Origin: Nitrosomonas sp. Nm166
Lineage (GTDB): Bacteria; Pseudomonadota; Gammaproteobacteria; Burkholderiales; Nitrosomonadaceae
Reading direction: 5' to 3'
Length of the DNA stretch: 64,000 nucleotides
Assembly (NCBI RefSeq): GCF_900112825.1
Contig: NZ_FONE01000002.1
Span: forward strand, 1-64,000
Both the position numbers and the translations under genes were made by a program. A model generated the notes under the pieces. That model was not told where the DNA came from. It made no database searches and was given only the letters and a program-made list of their open reading frames with translations. Shown piece by piece: positions 18,014 through 30,401 of the stretch (its first letter is position 1; each line of letters opens with the position of its first letter).

Positions 18014-18673
18014 CTAATTACTTTTTTCCATCGTATTAATAAACGCATTCGCTTCATCGATCGAATGTTCCATCGAAGCAATCAGCGCCGATACATCCGA
18101 TTTGATCGTGCCCAGCTCGTCTTTGAGTGAAGCGATAGCGCGTGCATTGAGATTATGTTTCAGAAACATGACCTGATCCCGGAAAACTCTGAGAATGGGT
18201 GCAATTTTGGTTTCCGCTTGCTTCATGGAGGCAATCAACTGACGGTAATGCGCCTGCGTGGTATCAAGCTTCCGTTGGCTGCTTTGTCTGAGCGAAGCAT
18301 TGCTGTATTGCGTGATTTCCTGTTTCCATTCGGTAAATAAAGCTTCAGACACGCTTTCGATGTCCTCGATCCGGCTTCTGACTTCTTCGGCTTTGTTGAC
18401 ACTGGCTTCATAAGTTTCGTGCAGCCGTTTATAGGTGGCTTCAAGATCACCACCGCTGAAATGGGTGGCGGCGGTAAATTGCTCCAGCGCGGATTTGAAT
18501 TGTTCTTTGGTTTCTTCCTGCGTGTCGCGCGCTTTCTCAACCCGGGATACCATCACATCGCGCTTCGGAATACCAATCTTCTCCAGCCCTTCAAGATACA
18601 TCGTGGACATCGTGGCGCAAGCCGATAACATCAGAAGTATGGGAAGCGCGAGTAAGCGAGTTAGATGTTTCAT
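18014..18673 (-). CDS. DUF2959-type coiled-coil lipoprotein
   Basis: A signal peptide ends in LSAC (Cys19). The mature 200 residues are almost entirely helical and charged, with heptad-like stretches and a start (YLEGLEKIGIPKRDVMVSRV) that I associate with the DUF2959 family. Function is unknown. The gene is 51 bases downstream of the Tam41-like gene on the same strand and may be the last gene of the lipid head-group operon. It ends 21 bases from the convergent nadC with no obvious terminator. Confidence 0.75.
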   Translation of the reverse strand: MKHLTRLLALPILLMLSACATMSTMYLEGLEKIGIPKRDVMVSRVEKARDTQEETKEQFKSALEQFTAATHFSGGDLEATYKRLHETYEASVNKAEEVRSRIEDIESVSEALFTEWKQEITQYSNASLRQSSQRKLDTTQAHYRQLIASMKQAETKIAPILRVFRDQVMFLKHNLNARAIASLKDELGTIKSDVSALIASMEHSIDEANAFINTMEKSN

Positions 18674-18724: not shown

Positions 18725-19702
18725 CTAGCGTAGCATACCGCGCTGTAATAACTGCCTGGCTACTTTTAAACCCCACAGGATCGGGTAGCGGCGCAACCTT
18801 GGTGTGATTTCTACGCTTACACCGGTATGCCGTTCTATTTTCCAGGCAGCGTATTCAACGCTGTTATTGAAGGTAAGGGTCGCTTTGGTTAATCGCAGGA
18901 TCGACAGGATTTTTCCCTGCCAGCGGCGCAAACGCCAGCGCCAGAGTACTTGCTGTTGAGTCTCTGGGTTAATGAGGCAGCGATATTTTCCATTTTCTTG
19001 TTTTTCCAATAATCCTTCTAGCATCGGACAGGCTACTTCTGTCAAACGGATGAGCGCGCTGAGGTTGGCTTGTGCCAGATGGCGTGCGCGTGTATTTCGC
19101 TCGGCACGTAATTCAGCCGCATAAGTAAGCGTCAGGCAGCGTGTCCAGATTTCTTCAACATCGAATATACCGGCCTCGAGCGCTGCAACGCCTGATCTCA
19201 GAAAAGTGACGATAGAGTGTGCCAGTGCCGCATAAATACGTTCCCGCACGGCATCATCTCGGGCATAAAGCAGCCGTGAGGGTTGTGCAAAGCGCGCCCA
19301 GATATACGGATGAAACCAGTATTGCGCACCTCGCTCAAAATCCCGGGCAGAAATGACGGCGTATTTGGCACGTAGCGTTCTGTTCTGATGCGGTACTTCC
19401 AGATAGAAGACATTGGGTGACAACCAAGTGTTTAAATTGGCCAAATAGCGTTCGGAATAAGCTTTGTAGTAGCTATCAACAATCACGTACAGGTCGACAA
19501 CGCCTTCATCCAGGCTGACATTCGAATGCAGGCAGGAGCCGTAAAGAATGACAGCATCCAGTGAGTCGCCGAAGCGCATCATAAGTGAATCTACCAAGGG
19601 AGCGAGATCAGGCGATACCGCCTTTTTGCTTTCCCAAGCAACTTCGTTAAGCAAGCGAATGGGTAACTGTTGTTTGGGGAATATGGGCTTGGGGTTATAC
19701 AT
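18725..19702 (-). CDS. Tam41-like nucleotidyltransferase, possible CDP-diacylglycerol synthase
   Basis: The 325-residue protein has a nucleotidyltransferase-type motif GSCLHSN (from Gly55) followed by VVDLYVIVD with Asp70 and Asp76, and later KYAVIS (113-118) and YIWARFAQPSRLLY (133-146). These correspond in order and spacing to blocks I know from mitochondrial Tam41/Mmp37 phosphatidate cytidylyltransferases (YGSG, LDFI, KYGVIS, LYIAGRLHKP). No membrane segment is evident. It lies 17 bases downstream of a diacylglycerol kinase and a CDP-alcohol transferase, so a role turning phosphatidate plus CTP into CDP-diacylglycerol fits. This is an inference from motifs and context; a generic nucleotidyltransferase remains possible. 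Confidence 0.6.
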   Translation of the reverse strand: MYNPKPIFPKQQLPIRLLNEVAWESKKAVSPDLAPLVDSLMMRFGDSLDAVILYGSCLHSNVSLDEGVVDLYVIVDSYYKAYSERYLANLNTWLSPNVFYLEVPHQNRTLRAKYAVISARDFERGAQYWFHPYIWARFAQPSRLLYARDDAVRERIYAALAHSIVTFLRSGVAALEAGIFDVEEIWTRCLTLTYAAELRAERNTRARHLAQANLSALIRLTEVACPMLEGLLEKQENGKYRCLINPETQQQVLWRWRLRRWQGKILSILRLTKATLTFNNSVEYAAWKIERHTGVSVEITPRLRRYPILWGLKVARQLLQRGMLR

Positions 19703-19719
19703 AATAAAAAAACAAGGTC

Positions 19720-20712
19720 CTATAATACTAAGAATGTGACGGGATCCGTTGCGGTAATCCGCAACGGATCCTGTGGGCGGGTCGATCGATACAATTCACC
19801 GTCGACAATATATTCATCATCCATCTGTAAAGTTAAAGAATGCGTGTTATGGCTATAGTAGCCGTCTTTTTCCTGCAATATCTGGCCGCCGCCAGATAGT
19901 AACGGCCACAGTGAGCGCCATAAGCGCTGATGGTGTTGATCGACCGCAGTGACATGTAACGGTGCGGGTTCCTTTCCCCAGTACGGGCGGATGTTGAGCA
20001 GCAGACAATCCAATGCACTGACCAGCGCAAACAAATAGGTGCCTTGATGAATCCGGCCATTGGCTTCCGTCATCGTCATTGTGACCGGCGCCCATTCACT
20101 TTGGCGGCGGCCAAAAACCATGCCGATGAGCGATCTCAGCATGATCAAAGCAGTAAAAATGCCGCCGGTGATGCCAATTTGCTTGACCGGGCTGCGCGAA
20201 AATTTTACGCCGCGCGCAACCAGTCCGACGGCAAAAAACATGCCGTAAATCGGTTTCATGCCATTTTGTTCGATACAAAGCACCGGGCGTTGCACCAGCT
20301 TAGGTGTTGATGGTTGTAACAGATAAGCACGTAAACGCCGCAAGGTTTGCTCAGGCTTGTCATGTACACCGAGATCCAGCGGCGTCATGTTGGTGGTGCC
20401 GCCCGGGATGGTCATCAGTACCGGCCATCCATCGAGCGCTAATGAAGTGAACAAATGGCCGAGTATCGCGTGCGTTGTGCCGTCACCCGCGACAATGACC
20501 AGTAAGTCAATGTCTGCTTGTATCAACCGGTCAATTGCAGTTTTGAAAGTAATGGCATCAGTGGCTTCACAGACAAGAATACCGGGTATTTCATCCAGTG
20601 CCTGCCAGATAGCTTGCTTGCGTTTACGCACCTGACCGCCCATGGGGTTGAGCAGACAGCCGACTCTGGCTGCCCCGGTTGTCAGGCGTTCAATTCGTGT
20701 TTGCAGCGTCAT
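19720..20712 (-). CDS. Diacylglycerol kinase-family lipid kinase
   Basis: I place the start at the ATG 20712, which begins MTLQTRIERL 13 bases after the upstream gene; an in-frame TTG at 20820 would overlap that gene by 95 bases and adds residues with no similarity to the family. The catalytic blocks are LLNPMGG, VAGDGTTHAIL (nucleotide loop) and IPGGTTNM, diagnostic of the DAGK_cat fold shared by diacylglycerol, sphingosine and NAD kinases. The likely reaction is ATP-dependent phosphorylation of diacylglycerol to phosphatidate at the inner membrane face. Neighbours (CDP-alcohol transferase upstream, Tam41-like enzyme downstream) supply the next two steps. Confidence 0.82.
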   Translation of the reverse strand: MTLQTRIERLTTGAARVGCLLNPMGGQVRKRKQAIWQALDEIPGILVCEATDAITFKTAIDRLIQADIDLLVIVAGDGTTHAILGHLFTSLALDGWPVLMTIPGGTTNMTPLDLGVHDKPEQTLRRLRAYLLQPSTPKLVQRPVLCIEQNGMKPIYGMFFAVGLVARGVKFSRSPVKQIGITGGIFTALIMLRSLIGMVFGRRQSEWAPVTMTMTEANGRIHQGTYLFALVSALDCLLLNIRPYWGKEPAPLHVTAVDQHHQRLWRSLWPLLSGGGQILQEKDGYYSHNTHSLTLQMDDEYIVDGELYRSTRPQDPLRITATDPVTFLVL

Positions 20713-20725
20713 GAGTGGTGCGGTT

Positions 20726-21964
20726 TCAACGAGATAATAGGGGATAGGGTTTTCTGAGATTGATTGGGGGACGCGTAAATATTTTGACTGCCCATATCTT
20801 CCGGTCGCGCGCTGGATCAATATCCTGTAACCAGGATTTCAGTGATCCCTCTTTTTGCTTGGTTCTCCAGCCGATTATCAGGCGCCATATTAATATGGCC
20901 GTCGAGATCAAGTGCCAGAGAACGACTAGCAGCAGTCCGAAATCAGGCTGATCGGTTAACCATCCATAGCTAAGTAAAATAAGATTCGGATTGCGACGAG
21001 CGGTAATCAATCGGTTAAACGAGTCCAGCTTGTGCCAAATGAACATATCAAAGGGCGCCAGCCAAAGCTGGAATGCGCCTTCACACAGGCGCCCGCCGAT
21101 ATAGCCTAGTAACATCAGCCACATCAGCATATCCAGACTGGCAAGAGGGATTGATGTGCCTGCCAATCCAACTCCCCAAGCCAGATACCATAGGGGAGGA
21201 TGGATAATATCCAGGCCGTGATCCAGTACATCTCCCAGTCGGCTTGAAGTCACCGTGACACGCGCCAGTTTTCCATCCACTGTGTCGAGAAAAGTCATTA
21301 ACCAGCCCATTAACAGGCCGATGCCAAAAAGTCCAAACCAGAATGCGACCCCCGCCAGCACGGCAAAAACGACGCTGAGATAAGTGACGTGATTGGGCTG
21401 CCAGCCTCGGCGCACGCAATAATGGGTAGCCCAGAATGCTGGCACTGGCCAGAGCCATTTAGTGACTAGGTCGGTTACTCCTTTGTATGAGCCGGAAAAC
21501 AATTCTTTTTCCAGCAGCCGACGATTAGCTTCGCTGATCGGCAGAAGGTAAGGCGGATCTTTCTTTTTCAGATTCTGCTGAACATCTATTTTCAGGTCTT
21601 TCAGGCCGATACGCGGAGTGGTCAATAATACGAATTTATAATTCTGGCTTTTATTATTATTAAGATTGCGAAGCAATCGCGATGCCTGATTACCATCAGT
21701 GCGTATGGCAGCGGGGCAATTTTCATTACTGTACAAAGCTATTTTTTTATCGATAGCAAGTAAGGCGCTGAGTACCCGTGCATCGAATAAAAAGTTAGCA
21801 TTTAGAAATAACACAGCAGCACTGATAGGGATTTTTTCAACATCCTCGGTGAGCGTAATTTGCTTTTTAGCTTTGAGCATGCGCTGTAAGCGTTCGCGCC
21901 CTGTTAATCCCCAGATTCTGGTTTCACTTTCACCGAAAATATAAATATAGGTTGAAGTTGACAT
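20726..21964 (-). CDS. CDP-alcohol phosphatidyltransferase with N-terminal nucleotidyltransferase-like domain
   Basis: The complete CDP-alcohol transferase signature D(x)2DG(x)2AR(x)8G(x)3D(x)3D is present: Asp227, Asp230, Gly231, Ala234, Arg235, Gly244, Asp248, Asp252. Several transmembrane helices surround it (from about 195 on). The N-terminal 140 or so residues form a separate soluble domain starting IYIFGESETRIWGLTGRERL. The linker SEANRRLLEKELFSGSYKG and WLWPVP then lead into the membrane part. This layout recalls bifunctional inositol-phosphate cytidylyltransferase/DIPP synthases, although the N-terminal domain lacks an obvious nucleotide-binding glycine loop and may be inactive. The alcohol substrate is unknown. 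First gene of the operon with the lipid kinase and Tam41-like enzyme. Confidence 0.82.
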   Translation of the reverse strand: MSTSTYIYIFGESETRIWGLTGRERLQRMLKAKKQITLTEDVEKIPISAAVLFLNANFLFDARVLSALLAIDKKIALYSNENCPAAIRTDGNQASRLLRNLNNNKSQNYKFVLLTTPRIGLKDLKIDVQQNLKKKDPPYLLPISEANRRLLEKELFSGSYKGVTDLVTKWLWPVPAFWATHYCVRRGWQPNHVTYLSVVFAVLAGVAFWFGLFGIGLLMGWLMTFLDTVDGKLARVTVTSSRLGDVLDHGLDIIHPPLWYLAWGVGLAGTSIPLASLDMLMWLMLLGYIGGRLCEGAFQLWLAPFDMFIWHKLDSFNRLITARRNPNLILLSYGWLTDQPDFGLLLVVLWHLISTAILIWRLIIGWRTKQKEGSLKSWLQDIDPARDRKIWAVKIFTRPPINLRKPYPLLSR

Positions 21965-22053: not shown

Positions 22054-23421
22054 TTAGCCTACCTGTATGTCCGCATTGGCATATTTAATATGCTTTTTCT
22101 TTGGAGTAGCTAGAAAATAAGCAAAAGTTAGTGGTCCTACACGGCCAACGATCATCATAAATATAATGACAATCTCGCCTCCTACGCTCAATTGACCAGT
22201 CAATCCTCTGGACAAGCCAACAGTGCTGAGTGCTGATACTACTTCGAAAGCGATATCAATAAATGGTGCTTTCTCAATTATAGTCAGAATAAATATTCCA
22301 AGAAATATCATGATAATAGATACAGTAGTTAATGCCAACGCTTTCATGACTTGTGATTGCGGTATAGTGCGCTGCAGCACAACTACGTCATCTCTGCGAC
22401 GAAGAAAGGCATAGGTAGTCATGATGAGAACCACAAAAGTACCTATTTTGAGACCACTGGCCGTACTTAACGAGCCTCCGCCGATGAACATCAACAAGAT
22501 CATCAATGTTGTTGTGGCATTAGTCAACTCTTCTATGGCCAAAGTGTTAAAACCCGCTGTCCGAGGCGTTATCGCTTGGAACCATGCTGCTATTGCCTGA
22601 TCAGCATGGGATAACAAGCCTAATGTTGCCGGATTTTGAGCCTCGAGAATCCATATCAAAACAAATGCGCAAAAATTTATGATCAGCGTGCTGATTAATA
22701 CGAGCTTGGTATTAACGCTCAGCTTATGCCATCTTTTTTGTTTTCTTAGATCAATCAATACCAGAAAACCAATACCACCAATAATAATGAATGTTGTGAT
22801 TATTAAATTAAGTGACAAATTGCCAGAATAGGGCATCAGGCTATTGCTATTTAACGCAAAGCCGGCATTATTAAATGCGGAGATTGTATAGAAAAAGGCA
22901 TGGTAAGTAGCTTCACCAAAACTTAAGTCATCTAGCCAGGTTAAGGTAAGTAATACAAATCCAGCTAATTCGATCAACAGAGAATAAATCAGTACGTATT
23001 TTGCTGTATGCGTGACCTTTTCCAAACTGGTCTGATTAAATGCTTCTTGCGCAATTACTTGCTGGCCAATTCCCAATCTTGTACCCAGGCTTAATGCCGC
23101 AACAATCGCAAAAGTCATAAAACTCAATCCGCCTGTTTGAATGAGTAGCGCAATGACGATCTGGCCAAACAGGGTAAAGTGAGTGCCGGTGTCGAGAACG
23201 ACCAAACCCGTAACCGTTACCGCTGAAGTTGCGGTAAATATGGACTGTAGCCAGCTGGTTTCCGCATGCGTAGCAAATGGCAGCTTTAATAACAGAGAGC
23301 CAATTGCAATAAGCAAAATAAATCCCAGGAATAATACCGCTGGCGGGCTGATATTAAATGTATTCTTTTTTGCTGTCCTTACTACTTTATAAGGTAAAAC
23401 GTGGGGATCCCATAGCTTCAT
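22054..23421 (-). CDS. TrkH/KtrB-type potassium channel subunit
   Basis: The 455-residue membrane protein has the four repeated membrane-pore-membrane units of the family, with selectivity-filter sequences visible as TVTGL, NNAGF, PRTAGFN and STVGLS, and the third-repeat gating segment rich in Gly-Ser (IGGGSLSTASGLK). It would carry K+ across the inner membrane. The length (455, without the long N-terminal extension of TrkH) and the adjacent single-RCK partner point to a KtrAB-like system rather than TrkAH. It begins 2 bases after the partner gene. Confidence 0.9.
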   Translation of the reverse strand: MKLWDPHVLPYKVVRTAKKNTFNISPPAVLFLGFILLIAIGSLLLKLPFATHAETSWLQSIFTATSAVTVTGLVVLDTGTHFTLFGQIVIALLIQTGGLSFMTFAIVAALSLGTRLGIGQQVIAQEAFNQTSLEKVTHTAKYVLIYSLLIELAGFVLLTLTWLDDLSFGEATYHAFFYTISAFNNAGFALNSNSLMPYSGNLSLNLIITTFIIIGGIGFLVLIDLRKQKRWHKLSVNTKLVLISTLIINFCAFVLIWILEAQNPATLGLLSHADQAIAAWFQAITPRTAGFNTLAIEELTNATTTLMILLMFIGGGSLSTASGLKIGTFVVLIMTTYAFLRRRDDVVVLQRTIPQSQVMKALALTTVSIIMIFLGIFILTIIEKAPFIDIAFEVVSALSTVGLSRGLTGQLSVGGEIVIIFMMIVGRVGPLTFAYFLATPKKKHIKYANADIQVG

Positions 23422-23423
23422 GA

Positions 23424-24077
23424 TTACACTAGCCTGGGTGCAATTGTTTTAAGCGCGCTTAATGACCCTGCTAATACCAGAGAGTCACCTGCTTCCAAAA
23501 CAAAGTTCAGCTTGATCAGCTTAAAAATGTCTTTTTTTCGTCTTACCAATAAAGGATCTATAGAATCTTTGGCTTCTCTTAACAATTCTTCAATTGAAAT
23601 ACTCTGACATTTCTCAGTTATTTTAATTTCAACTATATATAAACTTTGACCAATCGACATATATTGATTGACCATAGGGTAATTAAGCGATTGTGCTACC
23701 CTCATACCCATTTCTTCTTCAGGATGAATAATTCTGGAAACTCCAATCCTGGAGAGAATGGTGTGATGTGGTTTTGAAGTAGCCTTGGCCCAGATCTCTT
23801 TGACATTCATGTTCTTGAGCAGCAGTACACACAATATGCTGGCTTCCAGGCTTTCACCAATCGCTACTAAAGCGGCGTCGCAGGTTGTTATATTCAAATC
23901 CTTAAGCGCGTGCTCATCCGTTGCATCCGCTATTGCGGCAAGGGTCAGTTGATCCGCCATTTGGTTCACAATTTTTGCATTAATATCCACGCCAATTACA
24001 GAATGACCGAGACGCATCAATTCCAGCGATGCTGCTGAACCAAACCGACCTAAGCCTATTACTGCAAATTGTCCCAT
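23424..24077 (-). CDS. KtrA-type RCK potassium uptake regulator
   Basis: I choose the ATG at 24077 (MGQFAVIGLGRFGSA), preceded by GAGGA; an upstream in-frame codon adds nine residues. The protein, about 217 residues, has one Rossmann RCK_N domain with GLGRFG and the acidic VGVD-type strand end (IGVDIN), then an RCK_C domain (from about 135). Such proteins form octameric rings that gate the KtrB channel in response to ATP/ADP or NAD(H). TrkA of E. coli has two such units and is about twice as long. It lies 66 bases after lptG. Confidence 0.9.
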   Translation of the reverse strand: MGQFAVIGLGRFGSAASLELMRLGHSVIGVDINAKIVNQMADQLTLAAIADATDEHALKDLNITTCDAALVAIGESLEASILCVLLLKNMNVKEIWAKATSKPHHTILSRIGVSRIIHPEEEMGMRVAQSLNYPMVNQYMSIGQSLYIVEIKITEKCQSISIEELLREAKDSIDPLLVRRKKDIFKLIKLNFVLEAGDSLVLAGSLSALKTIAPRLV

Positions 24078-24143
24078 TTTTTCCTCGTATTGACTCAGCT
24101 TCAAGATTGCGTCTTCGTATATTGCCTTTAATGGAAGTCTGGA

Positions 24144-25208
24144 TTAAACAGTTCTGCGTAACCATAAATTTGCCAGCAGGATCATGAGTAAACCTGGTAC
24201 CAGGGCAATGAGTGCGGGGTTAAAGCGTAATATCAAGCCGGCATTTGCAATGATCTGATCCAGTAAGTAAACAGCGATACCGATCAGCGTGGCAAATACC
24301 AGCTTACTGCTTAAGCCGGTGCGAATCGATCCAAACACAAAGGGAATGGATAACAGCAGCATAGCAATTGTCATCAATGCACTGCCAATCTTTCTCCATA
24401 GCGCGAGTGCATACGAGTCTGCATCCTGACCAGTGCTGCGCAGGAATTCTACATGTCTTACCAATTCAAGCGGTGAAAGGCTTTCAGGTGGTTTGGTGAG
24501 GGTTAAAATATCTTCCGGATTAAGAAATGAAGACCAGTTCAACGAATTTACATGGGTTGCTGAAATCTGATCATCTTTAAATGTTCTGATGATGACATTG
24601 CTTAATGCCCAGATGTCGTCATCGATAATATCCGCAAATTGCGCCAGGATATGGGTGAGTAGGTAGCCTTCTTCATCTAATTGCAGGATTTCGATATCGG
24701 CTGCTTTTTTAGGATGTAGCATATGGCCAATACGCAGAATATTTTGTTCGTTACGGGTCCAGATTCCAAGATTCTTGCCTAATTCGGCACTTTGCTCCAG
24801 TGCGACGGCCCGGTGAGTAATGGCTTTTTGTTGCAGCTGGGGAGCTACAGATTGCTCTAAAACTGCAATGCTGAGCAGCAGTAAAATACCAACACTTAGA
24901 GGCGCTAAACTGATGCGCAAGGGAGAGATCCCGGCAACTCGCAAGGCGATTAATTCTGAATTGACTGCCAATTTTCCAAGTGCAATAACAGTGCCGAGCA
25001 GGGCAACAAAGGGTGCGATCTGAATAAATCTGCGCGGCAATAACATTGCTGTGTACAGGAAAGCATCTTTGACTCGATAGGTGCCTCTGCCGACATCGTC
25101 CAATTGATCCAATAAATCAAAAAAGCTGAATAAAGGAAGCAGAACCGCAGTGGCAATTATGAAGCCGATGAAAACTTGATAAGCGATATAGCGATAAATG
25201 ATCATCAT
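24144..25208 (-). CDS. lptG: LPS export permease LptG
   Basis: The ATG at 25208 overlaps the lptF stop as ATGA; the open frame extends 23 codons farther but into lptF. The product of about 354 residues has N-terminal and C-terminal pairs of transmembrane helices around a periplasmic beta-jellyroll, as in YjgP/YjgQ proteins. The blocks LFSFFDLLDQLDDVG and ALMTIAMLLLSIPFVFGS match the family. With LptF and the ATPase LptB it extracts lipopolysaccharide from the inner membrane. LptB, LptC and LptA are not in the window. Confidence 0.93.
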   Translation of the reverse strand: MMIIYRYIAYQVFIGFIIATAVLLPLFSFFDLLDQLDDVGRGTYRVKDAFLYTAMLLPRRFIQIAPFVALLGTVIALGKLAVNSELIALRVAGISPLRISLAPLSVGILLLLSIAVLEQSVAPQLQQKAITHRAVALEQSAELGKNLGIWTRNEQNILRIGHMLHPKKAADIEILQLDEEGYLLTHILAQFADIIDDDIWALSNVIIRTFKDDQISATHVNSLNWSSFLNPEDILTLTKPPESLSPLELVRHVEFLRSTGQDADSYALALWRKIGSALMTIAMLLLSIPFVFGSIRTGLSSKLVFATLIGIAVYLLDQIIANAGLILRFNPALIALVPGLLMILLANLWLRRTV

Positions 25209-26275
25209 GAGATTCGCTTTCGCCCGGATAACAGAGCATAGAAAACAAGGGCTAGCATCATAAATAGATCCAGCCACCAGACGCCCGGTATGCTACCTAC
25301 GACACCTTGCTCGACCCAGGTTTTAGCCAGTCCAGCCAAATTATAATAAGCAGCAAAGACTAAAGCTGCGATAAGATACATACGCTCTGTCTTGTCTTGG
25401 CGCGGCGTGATGCGAATAAATGTCACAGCGATTAAAGCCAGCAGGATGGTAGCGAGCGGACGCGAAATTCGCCATTGCAATTCTGCAATATCCCGCGGCT
25501 GATCAGATTCCCAAAGCGTTCTTGTGGCAGCTGCCTTGCGCCGGTAGTTAAGTACAAAATCATTATCAATAAAATAAGTCATATTCTTGAATGCGATGAC
25601 ATCATCGATACTGGCTGTACTACTGAGTCGATATATTACGCCGTCGGATAACTGAATGCTCGGTCTTGGTTCTGTTGTTGTTGGCTGAATCTGGCGAGCT
25701 TGTTTGGCGATGACAATTTCGCTGCCTTCCGGTTTCCGGATATAGTGAAAAATATTCTGCATTTGCTTGTCAACATCATTTTTGCTGCGCATATAGACAA
25801 TCCTGCCGCTCTTTTCGCTACCGTAAAAACGCCCGGCCTGAAAGCGGTTGGTATTTAGTTCAGCTTCCGCCTGCGCATCCAGAATATAACTTTCCGCGTA
25901 GGCCCAGGGGCGTACATAGGATGACAGCATGCCGCTGACGATACCCACGGGTACTGCCACGGTCAGTACCGTGAACACAATGCGCGAGCTGCTCACGCCG
26001 CTAGCGCGAAGCACATTCAGTTCCTGATCTTTGTTGAGTCTGCCGAGGCCCATGATGACTGAAATATACAGCGCGATAGGGATTAATACTTCTAGTGCAA
26101 TCAGGGTCTTCAGAAGCACGAGTTTGAGCAGACCGGCAACTCCCAATGATTCAGTGACAGCCCCGGCCAAAAGACGGGCGCTGCTGAAGCTGGCAAACAG
26201 ACCAACCAGAATAAGGATTACTACCGTGAAAGGCAGTAATATTTCGCGTGCGATATACCGTTCAACTAATTTCAT
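25205..26275 (-). CDS. lptF: LPS export permease LptF
   Basis: The 356-residue product starts MKLVERYIAREILLPF, typical for LptF, with membrane segments near residues 12-35, 53-75 and 95-117, then a periplasmic domain and three C-terminal helices. It pairs with LptG as the inner-membrane half of the LPS transporter. The gene is the first of the lptF-lptG pair and is followed by K+ uptake genes on the same strand. A short gap of 85 bases upstream separates it from the nucleotidyltransferase gene. Confidence 0.93.
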   Translation of the reverse strand: MKLVERYIAREILLPFTVVILILVGLFASFSSARLLAGAVTESLGVAGLLKLVLLKTLIALEVLIPIALYISVIMGLGRLNKDQELNVLRASGVSSSRIVFTVLTVAVPVGIVSGMLSSYVRPWAYAESYILDAQAEAELNTNRFQAGRFYGSEKSGRIVYMRSKNDVDKQMQNIFHYIRKPEGSEIVIAKQARQIQPTTTEPRPSIQLSDGVIYRLSSTASIDDVIAFKNMTYFIDNDFVLNYRRKAAATRTLWESDQPRDIAELQWRISRPLATILLALIAVTFIRITPRQDKTERMYLIAALVFAAYYNLAGLAKTWVEQGVVGSIPGVWWLDLFMMLALVFYALLSGRKRIS

Positions 26276-26360: not shown

Positions 26361-27161
26361 CTACTTTCTATTGAGTATCGATTCAGCAAGCACTAAATCC
26401 TCAATTTTATCGACATCTAAACCAGCGCATGGATCATCAAGCATAATCACCTGTATGTTTATCCCTGATTTTTCCGATATAGATGCCAGAGCTCTTTGTA
26501 GCGTTAAAAACCCGCATAAATACGAAAATACTGCTCTGAATCCAAGCACTTGTGCAACTAGTCTCCAAGGTCGTTTGCGCAAATCCTCGGCTTGCCGCCA
26601 GAATCTAACCAATGCCCGCCCTTGAGGATTAAAAGTGAACAAATTACAACCGCGAAATCCGCCATCGCGCAAATGGATGATAGTGCGCCTGGCACCAGGG
26701 AATGTAGCAGCGATAGCTTGCTCCCTGACCGCACCGACAGTGGCATCACACTGAGCTGCCAAGGAATCACGCAAAAAACTTTGCACCATAGCGGGTGTCA
26801 GCAACGCATGATCGGCAGTGGTTAATAGCACCGGCATATCATCAGGTATGTGATTAAGGGCGCTTTCAGCACTACGGCTGGGAGAGTCCAGATTCGGCAA
26901 CCAACTGACCTCTCCTGAGGCAATGCGCTGCTTTAATTCCGGGCAATGAGTGAGCAGAGCTTCGGGCGGCCCGCAAAGTATAATGGTGGTAATCAGATCA
27001 CAGTCGGCTAGCGTATCCAGAACCCGAATCACCATCGGAATGCCGCCAACAGGCGCAAAGGCTTTGCAAGCAGCGCCAGTATGCTGTGTGATAGGATCTT
27101 TGCTAGTACGGTCAGCAGCGAGAACTAGTGCTGCAAATCGTTTTGGTGTTGGATCGTTCAC
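26361..27161 (-). CDS. MobA-like nucleotidyltransferase (NTP_transf_3 type)
   Basis: The 266 residues begin with the sugar/alcohol-phosphate nucleotidyltransferase pattern LVLAADR, then KAFAPVGGIPMVIRVLDTL, and a TTADHALLTP metal-binding strand. This is the fold of MobA, IspD and GlmU uridylyl/cytidylyltransferases. No C-terminal hexapeptide repeats are present. The substrate is not evident. It overlaps the preceding GNAT gene by 4 bases (ATGA), so the two are translationally coupled. Location four genes from a CDP-alcohol transferase makes a CDP-alcohol-producing role attractive, but this is inference. Confidence 0.72.
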   Translation of the reverse strand: MNDPTPKRFAALVLAADRTSKDPITQHTGAACKAFAPVGGIPMVIRVLDTLADCDLITTIILCGPPEALLTHCPELKQRIASGEVSWLPNLDSPSRSAESALNHIPDDMPVLLTTADHALLTPAMVQSFLRDSLAAQCDATVGAVREQAIAATFPGARRTIIHLRDGGFRGCNLFTFNPQGRALVRFWRQAEDLRKRPWRLVAQVLGFRAVFSYLCGFLTLQRALASISEKSGINIQVIMLDDPCAGLDVDKIEDLVLAESILNRK

Positions 27162-28312
27162 AATGTTTTTCCATAAATACGATAGCGCTTGTACTGTTCA
27201 CTACCTATGCTGTCGAGAATGCTGCGCATGGCAACGTTATCTTCCAGTATCCATGACATCTCGACTTCCTGTATGCCGTGAGCGATTCCCGTTTGCCGTG
27301 GTGCATTGATGACTAGGCACGCCAATGCCAAACCCAATGGTGTATTATGAAATTGTTTGCGTACACCCATCAAGGGTATGCGTGCTGTCCGTATTTGATG
27401 ATTTCTGATTCTTCTAGTCAGTTTGAGCCAACCAAACGGAAACAAGCTGCCATTTAATTCAGTTAACACTTCGTTGAGATTAGGCAGTCCCACCATAAAT
27501 GCCGCGGGCTTACCATCGACTTCGGCAATTTGAATGAATTCATCAGGTAGCAACAGGCGTAGGCTAGCGCCCAATTCGGCAAATTCTTCTCGCGTAAACG
27601 GAATGAATCCCCAGTTTTTAGACCAGGCATCGTTAAAAATATCCCGCAGAGTTTCCATCTCTTCATCGAATTGATGACGTCGCAGGGTGCGTAATTTTAT
27701 TTTGGAAGAAAACCGATTGATCAGCATTTGCATGACACGGGGTATTTCAAAATCGACCTTGATCTTATAAGCTAGTAAATCCTTGATGGGATGATATCCT
27801 TGTTCTTCTAACAAGCGGCCATACCAGCGTGGCGAATGTGGCATCATAATGGCTGGCGGTGTGTCAAAGCCGTCGACCAGGATACCGCATTCCTGATTGA
27901 TAGAAAGATTAAACGGACCGCTGACATGACGAATCTGCCGGGAGGCGAGCCATGCTTCCGCATGCAACATTAGCGCAGCGCATACTTCCGCATCATCAAT
28001 ACATTCGAACAGACCAAAATGGCCACGCTCTATACCGTAGCGTTCCTGATGCAGCGAATCGATCTGCGCACTGATTCGTCCGACCGCTTGACCGTTTTGG
28101 TAAGCTACCCAGGCTTGCCATTCACCATGCTTAAAAAAAGGATTAAAGCGGGAGAAATGGAAACGCCGTTCCAGACGCAAAGGCGGTACCCACATCGGAT
28201 CATTGGCATACACATGCCAAGGCACATCGATAAATTTTCCCATATCGCGATAAGACATCACCGGGCGTACAACTACGGCTTTGGAACCGGTCAGCTTATC
28301 TTGTTTGTTCAT
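27158..28312 (-). CDS. GNAT-like acyltransferase family protein (unknown substrate)
   Basis: The 384-residue soluble protein has the early block FIDVPWHVYANDPMWVPPLR, a family signature of large GNAT-related proteins, followed by WVAYQNGQAVGRISAQID, which resembles the acetyl-CoA-binding beta strands of GNAT folds. A second GNAT-like half (about 215-370) carries PAAFMVGLPNLNEVL. The acyl donor and acceptor are unknown. It is coupled by an ATGA overlap to the MobA-like nucleotidyltransferase. I have seen the two adjacent in other proteobacteria, but without an assigned pathway. Confidence 0.65.
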   Translation of the reverse strand: MNKQDKLTGSKAVVVRPVMSYRDMGKFIDVPWHVYANDPMWVPPLRLERRFHFSRFNPFFKHGEWQAWVAYQNGQAVGRISAQIDSLHQERYGIERGHFGLFECIDDAEVCAALMLHAEAWLASRQIRHVSGPFNLSINQECGILVDGFDTPPAIMMPHSPRWYGRLLEEQGYHPIKDLLAYKIKVDFEIPRVMQMLINRFSSKIKLRTLRRHQFDEEMETLRDIFNDAWSKNWGFIPFTREEFAELGASLRLLLPDEFIQIAEVDGKPAAFMVGLPNLNEVLTELNGSLFPFGWLKLTRRIRNHQIRTARIPLMGVRKQFHNTPLGLALACLVINAPRQTGIAHGIQEVEMSWILEDNVAMRSILDSIGSEQYKRYRIYGKTL

Positions 28313-28488: not shown

Positions 28489-28956
28489 TTATAGGCGAGT
28501 ATGTTTTAATAGATTATCTACAAGTGTATGGAAAACTTCTTTGGGATCTGGTTCTTTATGGAAGGACCCATCGGATGCTGACGACTGTTCTGCAACTGCA
28601 CATTTTTCATCCGTGATTGTACGGCAGAAATCACAAAAATTATTCCAGTCGGTGTTGTAGCTGAGCAGACGATCTTGCGGAATAAAGACACGTAAGACTT
28701 CAAAATTATGCTGCATTTCGGGTAAGCGAGAGCAGAGGTACGAGTTGATATTTCTGGGCCAGCCTTTATGTTTCGGGTATAAAGCAGCCAGTTCTGTTTC
28801 AATCGTATAGCGAAAGTTATCAATCGCATTGGCGCGGCGTTTGCGATTAAGAATTTCAACAAATACAGCTATCAGACCTAGCAGACCAAACAAAACAAAT
28901 GGCCATAAAGGCACGGTTTCGAAATATCTAGCGATTTGATCAATATTTTCGTTCAA
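28489..28956 (-). CDS. Single-pass membrane protein of unknown function (155 aa)
   Basis: One hydrophobic helix (about residues 16-34, PLWPFVLFGLLGLIAVFVEIL) is followed by a basic patch RKRR and a soluble region with four cysteines (including CDFC). The C-terminal part is acidic. No family was recognised. The gene stands alone between the GNAT gene and a poorly coding stretch; a plain ribosome site was not obvious. It is probably real because the frame is closed by normal codons and has a coherent membrane topology. Confidence 0.55.
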   Translation of the reverse strand: MNENIDQIARYFETVPLWPFVLFGLLGLIAVFVEILNRKRRANAIDNFRYTIETELAALYPKHKGWPRNINSYLCSRLPEMQHNFEVLRVFIPQDRLLSYNTDWNNFCDFCRTITDEKCAVAEQSSASDGSFHKEPDPKEVFHTLVDNLLKHTRL

Positions 28957-29726: not shown

Positions 29727-30401
29727 CTATTTAGTGCCAAGGGGAATCTGAACCCCGATATTTACACCATGAATACCATTGTTAACATTTACTCCGCCGC
29801 TGAATTTGAATTTCGTTCTATTATTTATGTGTGTGTAGTTTATTGTTCCGCCGCTTCCTGTTGTATTAACTATTGCACTGACACCATGTCCACTTGTACC
29901 TGAAAAACCACCACCGATCGAGTTCATCTGAGGTACTGTTCGGTCACTCGAAATATTGGTATCAAATGTTATAGTTCCATTCGAAATTTTGTGTGTGTAA
30001 TTTATTATTCCATCACCTTTTATTAGGTTAATTGCTGCATTTGCACGATGTCCACTTACACTTGAAAAACCACTACCGATCGAGTTCATCTGAGTTGCTG
30101 TTCCGACACTCAAAATATTGGTATCAAATGTTATAGTTCCATTCGAATTCTTGTGTGTGTAATTTATTGTTCCATCAGATTTTATTAGGTTAATTGCTGC
30201 ATTTGCACGATGTCCACTTACACTTGAAAAACTACTACCGATCGAGTTCATCTGAGAACCTGTTCCATCATTCGAAATATTGGTATCAACTGTTACAGTT
30301 CCACCTGGCCCAGATTCAATTGGAATGCGTATAATTTCGGCTTTTAAAGTATTAAAAATCAACAACAAACTTAAACCCAAAATTTTCATAGAGGTATTCA
30401 T
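29727..30401 (-). CDS. Secreted protein with three tandem 54-residue repeats
   Basis: A signal peptide (about residues 1-21, ending LKA) precedes a mature region made of three repeat units at residues 34-87, 88-141 and 142-194. Each opens with GT(V/I)T(V/F)DTNI, continues with QMNSIG and SGHxxxA, and ends INYTH. A short tail with GGVNVNNG and VNIGVQIPLG, strand-like and Gly-rich, follows. The first two units are nearly identical in DNA as well, implying recent duplication. The composition (Asn, Ser, Thr, Gly) and repetition suggest an extracellular or surface beta-structure. I do not recognise the family. It lies in a poorly coding, probably accessory stretch. Confidence 0.65.
   Translation of the reverse strand: MNTSMKILGLSLLLIFNTLKAEIIRIPIESGPGGTVTVDTNISNDGTGSQMNSIGSSFSSVSGHRANAAINLIKSDGTINYTHKNSNGTITFDTNILSVGTATQMNSIGSGFSSVSGHRANAAINLIKGDGIINYTHKISNGTITFDTNISSDRTVPQMNSIGGGFSGTSGHGVSAIVNTTGSGGTINYTHINNRTKFKFSGGVNVNNGIHGVNIGVQIPLGTK
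29820..30302 (-). repeat. 162-bp tandem coding repeat, three copies
   Basis: Copies are at 30302-30141, 30140-29979 and 29978-29820. Corresponding words such as GTGTGTGTAA (plus strand, 29991 and 30153) recur at exactly 162 bases. Copies 1 and 2 differ at few positions; copy 3 has diverged and is one codon shorter. Confidence 0.85.

Follow-up and report, generated by a model that had tools for sequence, protein, structure and literature searches.

The operon and its three protein families

The window considered here comprises the first 64,000 nucleotides of contig NZ_FONE01000002.1 from Nitrosomonas sp. Nm166 (assembly GCF_900112825.1). On its minus strand lie three close-set genes encoding a CDP-alcohol phosphotransferase, a lipid kinase, and a Tam41-type nucleotidyltransferase. 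These genes are very probably counterparts of cpgA, cpgB, and cpgC of Caulobacter crescentus, and would build the phosphoglycerate head of a sphingolipid, namely ceramide phosphoglycerate (CPG) and its extended form, CPG2.

20726 to 21964, minus strand: CpgA-like CDP-alcohol phosphotransferase with an N-terminal cytidylyltransferase-like domain (412 amino acids, aa)
19720 to 20712, minus strand: CpgB-like lipid kinase, a probable ceramide kinase (330 aa from the ATG at 20712)
18725 to 19702, minus strand: CpgC-like Tam41-type nucleotidyltransferase, proposed to be a cytidine triphosphate (CTP)-dependent activator of ceramide-1-phosphate (325 aa)

The initial annotation of this stretch described three tightly spaced genes of these families and took them for a route from diacylglycerol to an unusual phospholipid. 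The layout was borne out, with gaps of 13 bases (transferase/kinase) and 17 bases (kinase/nucleotidyltransferase). The kinase open reading frame can be extended to 20820 through an in-frame TTG, which would make it overlap the preceding gene. Scans of the window for promoters (16 versus a mean of 22.6 in shuffled sequences) and terminators (11 versus 11.2) showed no enrichment.

The family assignments also hold. The CDP-alcohol phosphotransferase matches CDP-OH_P_transf in Pfam (E 2.2e-7), and its signature residues are all present; the motif D-x2-D-G-x2-A-R-x8-G-x3-D-x3-D is complete and was found to be invariant in 30 aligned sequences. Homologs are 35-78% identical to the window protein. 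The N-terminal domain matches NTP_transf_4 at E 1.4e-5, below the cut-off, and this match was seen in 2 of 30 homologs. In the predicted structure (pLDDT 88.4), the best match along both domains is AF2299 (4o6n; Z 22.2 over 323 residues). IPCT-DIPPS (4mnd) likewise matches both domains (Z 20.4 over 322 residues), and IspD-type cytidylyltransferases match only the N-terminal one (Z about 9). AF2299 and IPCT-DIPPS, both from Archaeoglobus, resemble CpgA in joining an N-terminal cytidylyltransferase-like domain to a CDP-alcohol transferase domain; however, they are 16% and 12% identical to it, respectively, and the predicted substrates of CpgA are CDP-glycerate and CPG. IPCT-DIPPS uses soluble CDP-inositol as its donor. 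The kinase, annotated as a member of the DAGK family, matches DAGK_cat at E 3.2e-10, and its GDGT motif is kept in 70 of 71 sequences; searched against PDB sequences, it gave no match at E 0.01.

The Tam41-type assignment of the nucleotidyltransferase was confirmed chiefly through its predicted structure. In a profile search, the 325-aa protein matched Tam41_Mmp37 (PF09139) at E 0.0014 and 18.5 bits, under the Pfam cut-off of 24. Nitrosomonas homologs matched the same family at E up to 1 in 17 of 19 cases (best 1.4e-4), and a search of NCBIfam with the window protein gave no match. An AlphaFold2 model was built from 19 sequences (pLDDT 85.7). The top five Foldseek matches to this model were all Tam41, the best two having E-values of 3.9e-8 and 5.0e-8 and query TM-scores of 0.49 and 0.53. 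The model overlays CTP-bound Firmicutes Tam41 (7ecd) with a Z of 19.5, residues 27-278 of the model being aligned, and mitochondrial Tam41 (6ig4) with a Z of 15.8; the first non-Tam41 chain scored 7.8. Membership in some other nucleotidyltransferase family, for instance that of the aminoglycoside adenylyltransferases, was discounted on these scores (Z 7.8 or lower versus 19.5). The modeled fold appears to be common to the mitochondrial (6ig2, 6ig4) and Firmicutes (7ecd) enzymes over 218-228 residues, although the CpgC-like protein is 17% identical to Tam41 and its predicted lipid substrate, ceramide-1-phosphate, is a different one.

Of the three acids typical of its fold, Tam41 is reported to retain a single one, and to bind CTP through basic residues (PMC11646218). 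In an alignment of 81 CpgC-family sequences, Y54, G55, S56, and D70 were found in 80, and K113 and R137 in all 81. K113 and R137 align with Tam41 in the profile alignment, as do KY-x-V and RF-x-x-P stretches; D70 stands out by its conservation. Conservation of these three residues would suit the single acid and basic CTP-binding residues of Tam41. Unlike Tam41, the CpgC family has invariant C-terminal residues (Y284, W287, K288, R291, and H292, 81 of 81) that lie beyond the part aligned to 7ecd. Bacterial Tam41-type enzymes used in this manner had been called little described in the initial annotation, which goes too far. Firmicutes and proteobacterial homologs are published (PMC11646218), one of them is solved (7ecd), a CDP-diacylglycerol (CDP-DAG)-synthase InterPro domain was noted in Caulobacter CC_1161, and Nitrosomonas eutropha orthologs have been reported (PMC11324152).

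Linkage and co-occurrence with ceramide genes

The genes neighbouring relatives of the nucleotidyltransferase were surveyed in 80 titled loci, many of which are incomplete. These are the best 80 of 585 confirmed loci, and neighbour counts therefore lean to near relatives. With a threshold of 40 bits or more (100 for CerR and 200 for AasR), the kinase was found alongside the nucleotidyltransferase in 70 loci and the CDP-alcohol transferase in 53. Because both recur in this way, the operon arrangement is not due to chance. Other frequent neighbours were an LptG-type gene (66 loci), an LptF-type gene (58), ceramide synthase (CerS; 57), and serine palmitoyltransferase (SPT; 17), and at least one ceramide gene was present in 61 loci. 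In the window, a CerS-like gene sits about 5 kb upstream of the operon.

Co-occurrence was examined in 398 Pseudomonadota genomes, of which 27 have the nucleotidyltransferase. SPT was found in 26 of these 27 versus 10 of the 371 others (p 1.6e-31) and CerS in 27 of 27 versus 16 of 371 (p 4.5e-31); since the tests ignore relatedness, these p-values overstate independence. The SPT count leaves out 11 of the 47 genomes returned as paralogues (206-215 bits versus 351 or more for the rest). Within the genus, the nucleotidyltransferase was present in 21 of 24 other genomes, and the three misses are 75-83% complete. It was found with a single-sequence query in none of 16 genomes from other families of the order. 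In sum, this is a conserved, genuine operon whose families were read correctly and whose glycerolipid assignment was probably wrong: the notion that the genes serve to make a lipid head group, include a Tam41-type enzyme, and are linked in relatives stands, and that of diacylglycerol as the substrate is not supported.

The genome encodes its own set of ceramide genes, together with a CpgD-like gene, on two further contigs:

L033:4727-6544 (contig C35): AasR, by family match
L033:6551-7465 (contig C35): CerR, by family match
L033:7495-7749 (contig C35): AcpR, by family match
L033:7749-8942 (contig C35): SPT, matching solved serine palmitoyltransferases
L043:1468-2223 (contig C112): putative CpgD-like cytidylyltransferase, 40-58% identical to cluster-encoded proteins over 235+ residues

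The first four form one row (L033:4727-8942). Against PDB sequences, SPT finds solved serine palmitoyltransferases first (E 1.2e-117), and the first non-SPT chain, a 2-amino-3-ketobutyrate ligase, follows at 7.6e-61. The CpgD-like protein is 52-58% identical to proteins from clusters L116, L118, L122, L124, and L127, where the corresponding genes sit between a CC_1153-like gene and LptF; its nearest solved protein is a CTP:phosphocholine cytidylyltransferase (E 9.7e-15). A hopanoid-like gene set also occurs a few kb from the ceramide operon (L033:12456-18085), and its genes are ones that we take to resemble HpnH and HpnN.

In Caulobacter crescentus, the phosphosphingolipid genes have been described as CC_1152 (CpgD, which makes CDP-glycerate), CC_1153 (CofC-like), CC_1154 (ceramide synthase), CC_1155/1156 (a second LptF/LptG), CC_1159 (CpgA), CC_1160 (CpgB, ceramide kinase), CC_1161 (CpgC), and CC_1162-1165 (SPT, AcpR, CerR, and AasR) (PMC11324152). 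Under other names, cpgABC are ccna_01217-01219 and cpgD is ccna_01210. The pathway is backed by genetics and two assayed enzymes: CpgB was shown to form ceramide-1-phosphate, in vitro, and CpgD to form CDP-glycerate (PMC10331486, PMC12275187, PMC11324152). The Nm166 genome resembles this system in having the same three gene families side by side. LptF/LptG, a CofC-like nucleotidyltransferase, and a CerS-like gene accompany them in the window, and other contigs carry SPT, AcpR, CerR, AasR, and a gene resembling cpgD. It differs in that the genes are spread over at least three contigs; further differences are that the kinase and CpgC are fused in some Nitrosomonas and that no CC_1158-type phosphoesterase was found in the 37 loci L078-L114. 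For Nitrosomonas eutropha, of the same genus and with the same pathway, 13 or more of the region's 17 genes are reported to have good orthologs, which fall into three regions of its genome (PMC11324152, Fig 7 and Table S2D).

In L128 and L140, titled alphaproteobacteria, CDP-alcohol transferase, kinase, and nucleotidyltransferase genes are followed by SPT-AcpR-CerR-AasR on the opposite strand, which is the order of CC_1159 to CC_1165. The CerS, CC_1153-like, and CpgD-like genes lie on the other side, in an order that runs opposite to the Caulobacter numbering; the intervening genes resemble LptF/LptG weakly (35-46 bits). SPT is found inside the locus in L129, L144, L141, and L146, from records titled desulfobacterial or Marinimicrobia. 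In records titled Nitrospirales, the head-group genes are accompanied by a CerS-like gene, and SPT was not seen in the DNA examined. A metallophosphoesterase (e.g., L116:6750-7742), perhaps the CC_1158 counterpart, occurs in 25 of the 80 loci; it was found in 0 of 37 loci from L078 to L114 versus 25 of the 43 others, all within L115-L157. A search of plasmids returned 17 records, 13 of them from Roseomonas.

The kinase and nucleotidyltransferase were found as a single reading frame of 664-697 aa in 10 of the 80 loci, all titled Nitrosomonas; N. ureae Nm13 (L087) is one example. On the tree, the window falls within this fused group (12 rows, 10 of them fused, with internal order not resolved), the window and L085 being the split members. 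At 19700-19730 of the window, the kinase ends in TAG and the nucleotidyltransferase starts 17 bases on in a different frame, beside a run of seven T. The split here is either a true fission or an error of the draft assembly.

A proposed route to the sphingolipid head group

Ceramide would be supplied by AasR, AcpR, SPT, CerS, and CerR of the same genome and phosphorylated by CpgB to ceramide-1-phosphate. The Tam41-type CpgC may then activate ceramide-1-phosphate with CTP to give CDP-ceramide, much as mitochondria activate phosphatidate; we consider this identification of CpgC as a CDP-ceramide synthase to be evenly balanced. Where the two proteins are fused, ceramide would be turned straight into CDP-ceramide. 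Glycerate would displace CMP from CDP-ceramide to form CPG. A CpgD-like enzyme (L043) would make soluble CDP-glycerate, from which CpgA would move phosphoglycerate onto CPG to form CPG2, as hypothesized for Caulobacter. LptF/LptG of the same gene row may export the lipid.

The CpgC step was called unidentified in pathway papers of 2025 and 2026 (PMC12275187, PMC13228409). An NDP-activated ceramide had already been suggested as the product of CC_1161, which carries the CDP-DAG-synthase domain (PMC11324152), and the Tam41 fold and the kinase fusion suggest added support for this idea. In open-licence PMC literature, no paper linking CDP-ceramide with bacteria and sphingolipid was found; among the matches listed, none joined Tam41 and Caulobacter, and nothing relevant was found on the pathway in Nitrospira, Desulfo-, or Nitrosospira.

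Caulobacter genetics indicate that CPG formation depends on CpgB and CpgC but on neither CpgA nor CpgD, and that CPG2 requires CpgA (PMC12275187, PMC11324152). This fits the finding that CpgA was undetected in some genomes that keep the pair. Of the 19 loci in which the kinase is present but CpgA is not, 7 were followed by a search of the whole genome for CpgA, with 4 CpgA-bearing loci as controls. CpgA was found in all four control genomes and elsewhere in the genome in two of the seven; it was undetected in the other five (G434, G435, G438, G439, and G440), three of which are titled metagenome-assembled genomes, with completeness not given. Nitrosospira sp. Nsp2 is among the genomes in which CpgA was undetected. 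The CpgA-like transferase is thus dispensable alongside the kinase and nucleotidyltransferase. Two Nitrospirales loci (L125:7692-12410, and likewise L126) have two CDP-alcohol transferase copies flanking the pair, possibly one per phosphoglycerate.

As for the donor, the soluble CDP-inositol of IPCT-DIPPS would suit the extension of CPG by CpgA with CDP-glycerate, a role proposed by the Caulobacter authors. The predicted structure fits this hypothesis without deciding the donor, because it is also matched by phosphatidylinositol phosphate synthases, enzymes that use CDP-lipids and that lead the NCBIfam matches.

Several points weigh against the proposed route. The phosphatidylinositol phosphate synthases match the CpgA model with Z 19.6 (5d92) and 15.8 (6h5a). 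The top NCBIfam families for CpgA are archaetidylinositol phosphate synthase (E 5.5e-12) and phosphatidylinositol phosphate synthase (E 3.8e-8), behind which IPCT-DIPPS trails (E 9.5e-7). For CpgC, TM-scores to Tam41 are moderate (0.46-0.53 by query), one profile (A1) reaches Tam41 weakly (E 0.057), and a more diverse profile (A2) missed Tam41 in the PDB altogether. A six-frame scan with PF09139 gave no match in this genome, nor in any genome, 14 controls included. If CpgC makes CDP-ceramide, the enzyme consuming it is missing, since Caulobacter without CpgA still makes CPG, and none of the genome's four CDP-OH_P_transf genes is an evident candidate for the CMP-glycerate exchange. The ceramide operon lies on a different contig from the head-group genes, 19 of the 80 loci have no ceramide gene in the DNA examined, the nucleotidyltransferase is missing from 10 of the 36 genomes with SPT, and in one genome (G382) it occurs with no SPT reaching the threshold. 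In vitro, diacylglycerol is a further substrate of Caulobacter CpgB, phosphorylated with comparable activity (PMC10331486). The Cpg assignment draws on published descriptions, families, and gene neighbourhoods, and no lipid data for Nitrosomonas were found among the literature matches listed.

It is plausible, if tentative, that the ceramide pathway is the same but that CpgC forms CPG directly, with no CDP-ceramide released, or that it activates a different group; the Tam41 fold would then bind a nucleotide but carry out different chemistry. The genetic requirement for CpgB and CpgC alone among the Cpg proteins would agree with this, as would the five genomes in which CpgA was undetected and the invariant C-terminal residues outside the 7ecd-aligned part. 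Against this reading, the match to CTP-bound Tam41 stands well above the others, and D70, as the one conserved acid, suits the reported Tam41 features together with K113 and R137 (PMC11646218). Addition of another head group to ceramide in Nitrosomonas, e.g., phosphoglycerol or phosphoserine, seems unlikely. CpgA specificity may drift because homologs are 35-78% identical to the window protein, and no measurement of a Nitrosomonas head group was found; yet CpgD-like, CC_1153-like, and CpgA-like genes are all present, as in Caulobacter.

The route first annotated, from diacylglycerol through phosphatidate and CDP-diacylglycerol to an unusual glycerophospholipid in parallel to CdsA/PgsA/PssA, is very improbable: the family-level activities fit, bacterial Tam41 can make CDP-diacylglycerol (PMC11646218), CpgB accepts diacylglycerol in vitro, and the best NCBIfam matches of the transferase are CDP-lipid users, but the nucleotidyltransferase tracks and is linked to ceramide genes, the kinase counterpart in Caulobacter is a ceramide kinase whose deletion leaves phosphatidate unchanged (PMC10331486), and the transferase said to join CDP-diacylglycerol to an alcohol is not retained in all genomes that keep the pair. 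Nor is the idea of a self-contained route supported; the genome has one strong CTP_transf_1 (CdsA-family) gene, so CDP-diacylglycerol need not derive from the operon.

The surrounding gene row and its significance

Upstream of the operon, the following genes of the window would belong to the head-group and ceramide pathway:

24144 to 25277, minus strand: LptG, possible lipid exporter (LptG equivalog, E 5.2e-94)
25205 to 26275, minus strand: LptF, possible lipid exporter (LptF equivalog, E 3.2e-93)
26361 to 27161, minus strand: MobA-like nucleotidyltransferase, probable CC_1153 counterpart (266 aa; NTP_transf_3, E 1.8e-14)
27158 to 28312, minus strand: GNAT-like protein, probable bacterial ceramide synthase (384 aa; Acetyltransf_1, E 0.0039, below the cut-off)

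The probable CerS label of the GNAT-like protein was given by co-occurrence and linkage, and a search of NCBIfam gave no match. The MobA-like gene overlaps it by 4 bases, has a weak CofC match (E 0.13), and was found in 46 of the 80 loci. LptF and LptG (24144-26275) are the only LptF_LptG matches in the whole genome. Because this sole pair lies in the sphingolipid gene row, lipopolysaccharide and sphingolipid may share one exporter; in Caulobacter, by contrast, second versions of LptF/LptG are reported (PMC11324152).

Between LptG and the CDP-alcohol transferase lie TrkH and TrkA (22054-24104), which set this row apart from the Caulobacter combination. The same arrangement was seen in 1 of the 80 loci (L084), and these genes were probably inserted recently. 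A DUF2959 gene (18014-18673) follows the operon in 24 loci, 23 of them titled Nitrosomonas; the other, L096, is titled Gammaproteobacteria yet groups with Nitrosomonas on the tree. A 155-aa protein (28489-28956) that has no match in Pfam or NCBIfam recurs upstream of the CerS-like gene in 15 of the 80 loci. A 224-aa protein (29727-30401) contains, by eye, near-repeats of about 54 residues and has no Pfam match at E 0.01.

Both the pathway and its occurrence in Nitrosomonas have already been published, and the operon gives a lead on the CpgC step. The Tam41 fold and the natural fusion to a ceramide kinase make a concrete and easily tested proposal for that step. If it is true, sphingolipid head groups would be added by a CDP-lipid route, with a CDP-ceramide:glycerate transferase yet to be found. 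By gene content, ammonia oxidisers and bacteria titled desulfobacterial or Marinimicrobia may carry anionic sphingolipids, a possibility that matters for reading environmental lipid data.

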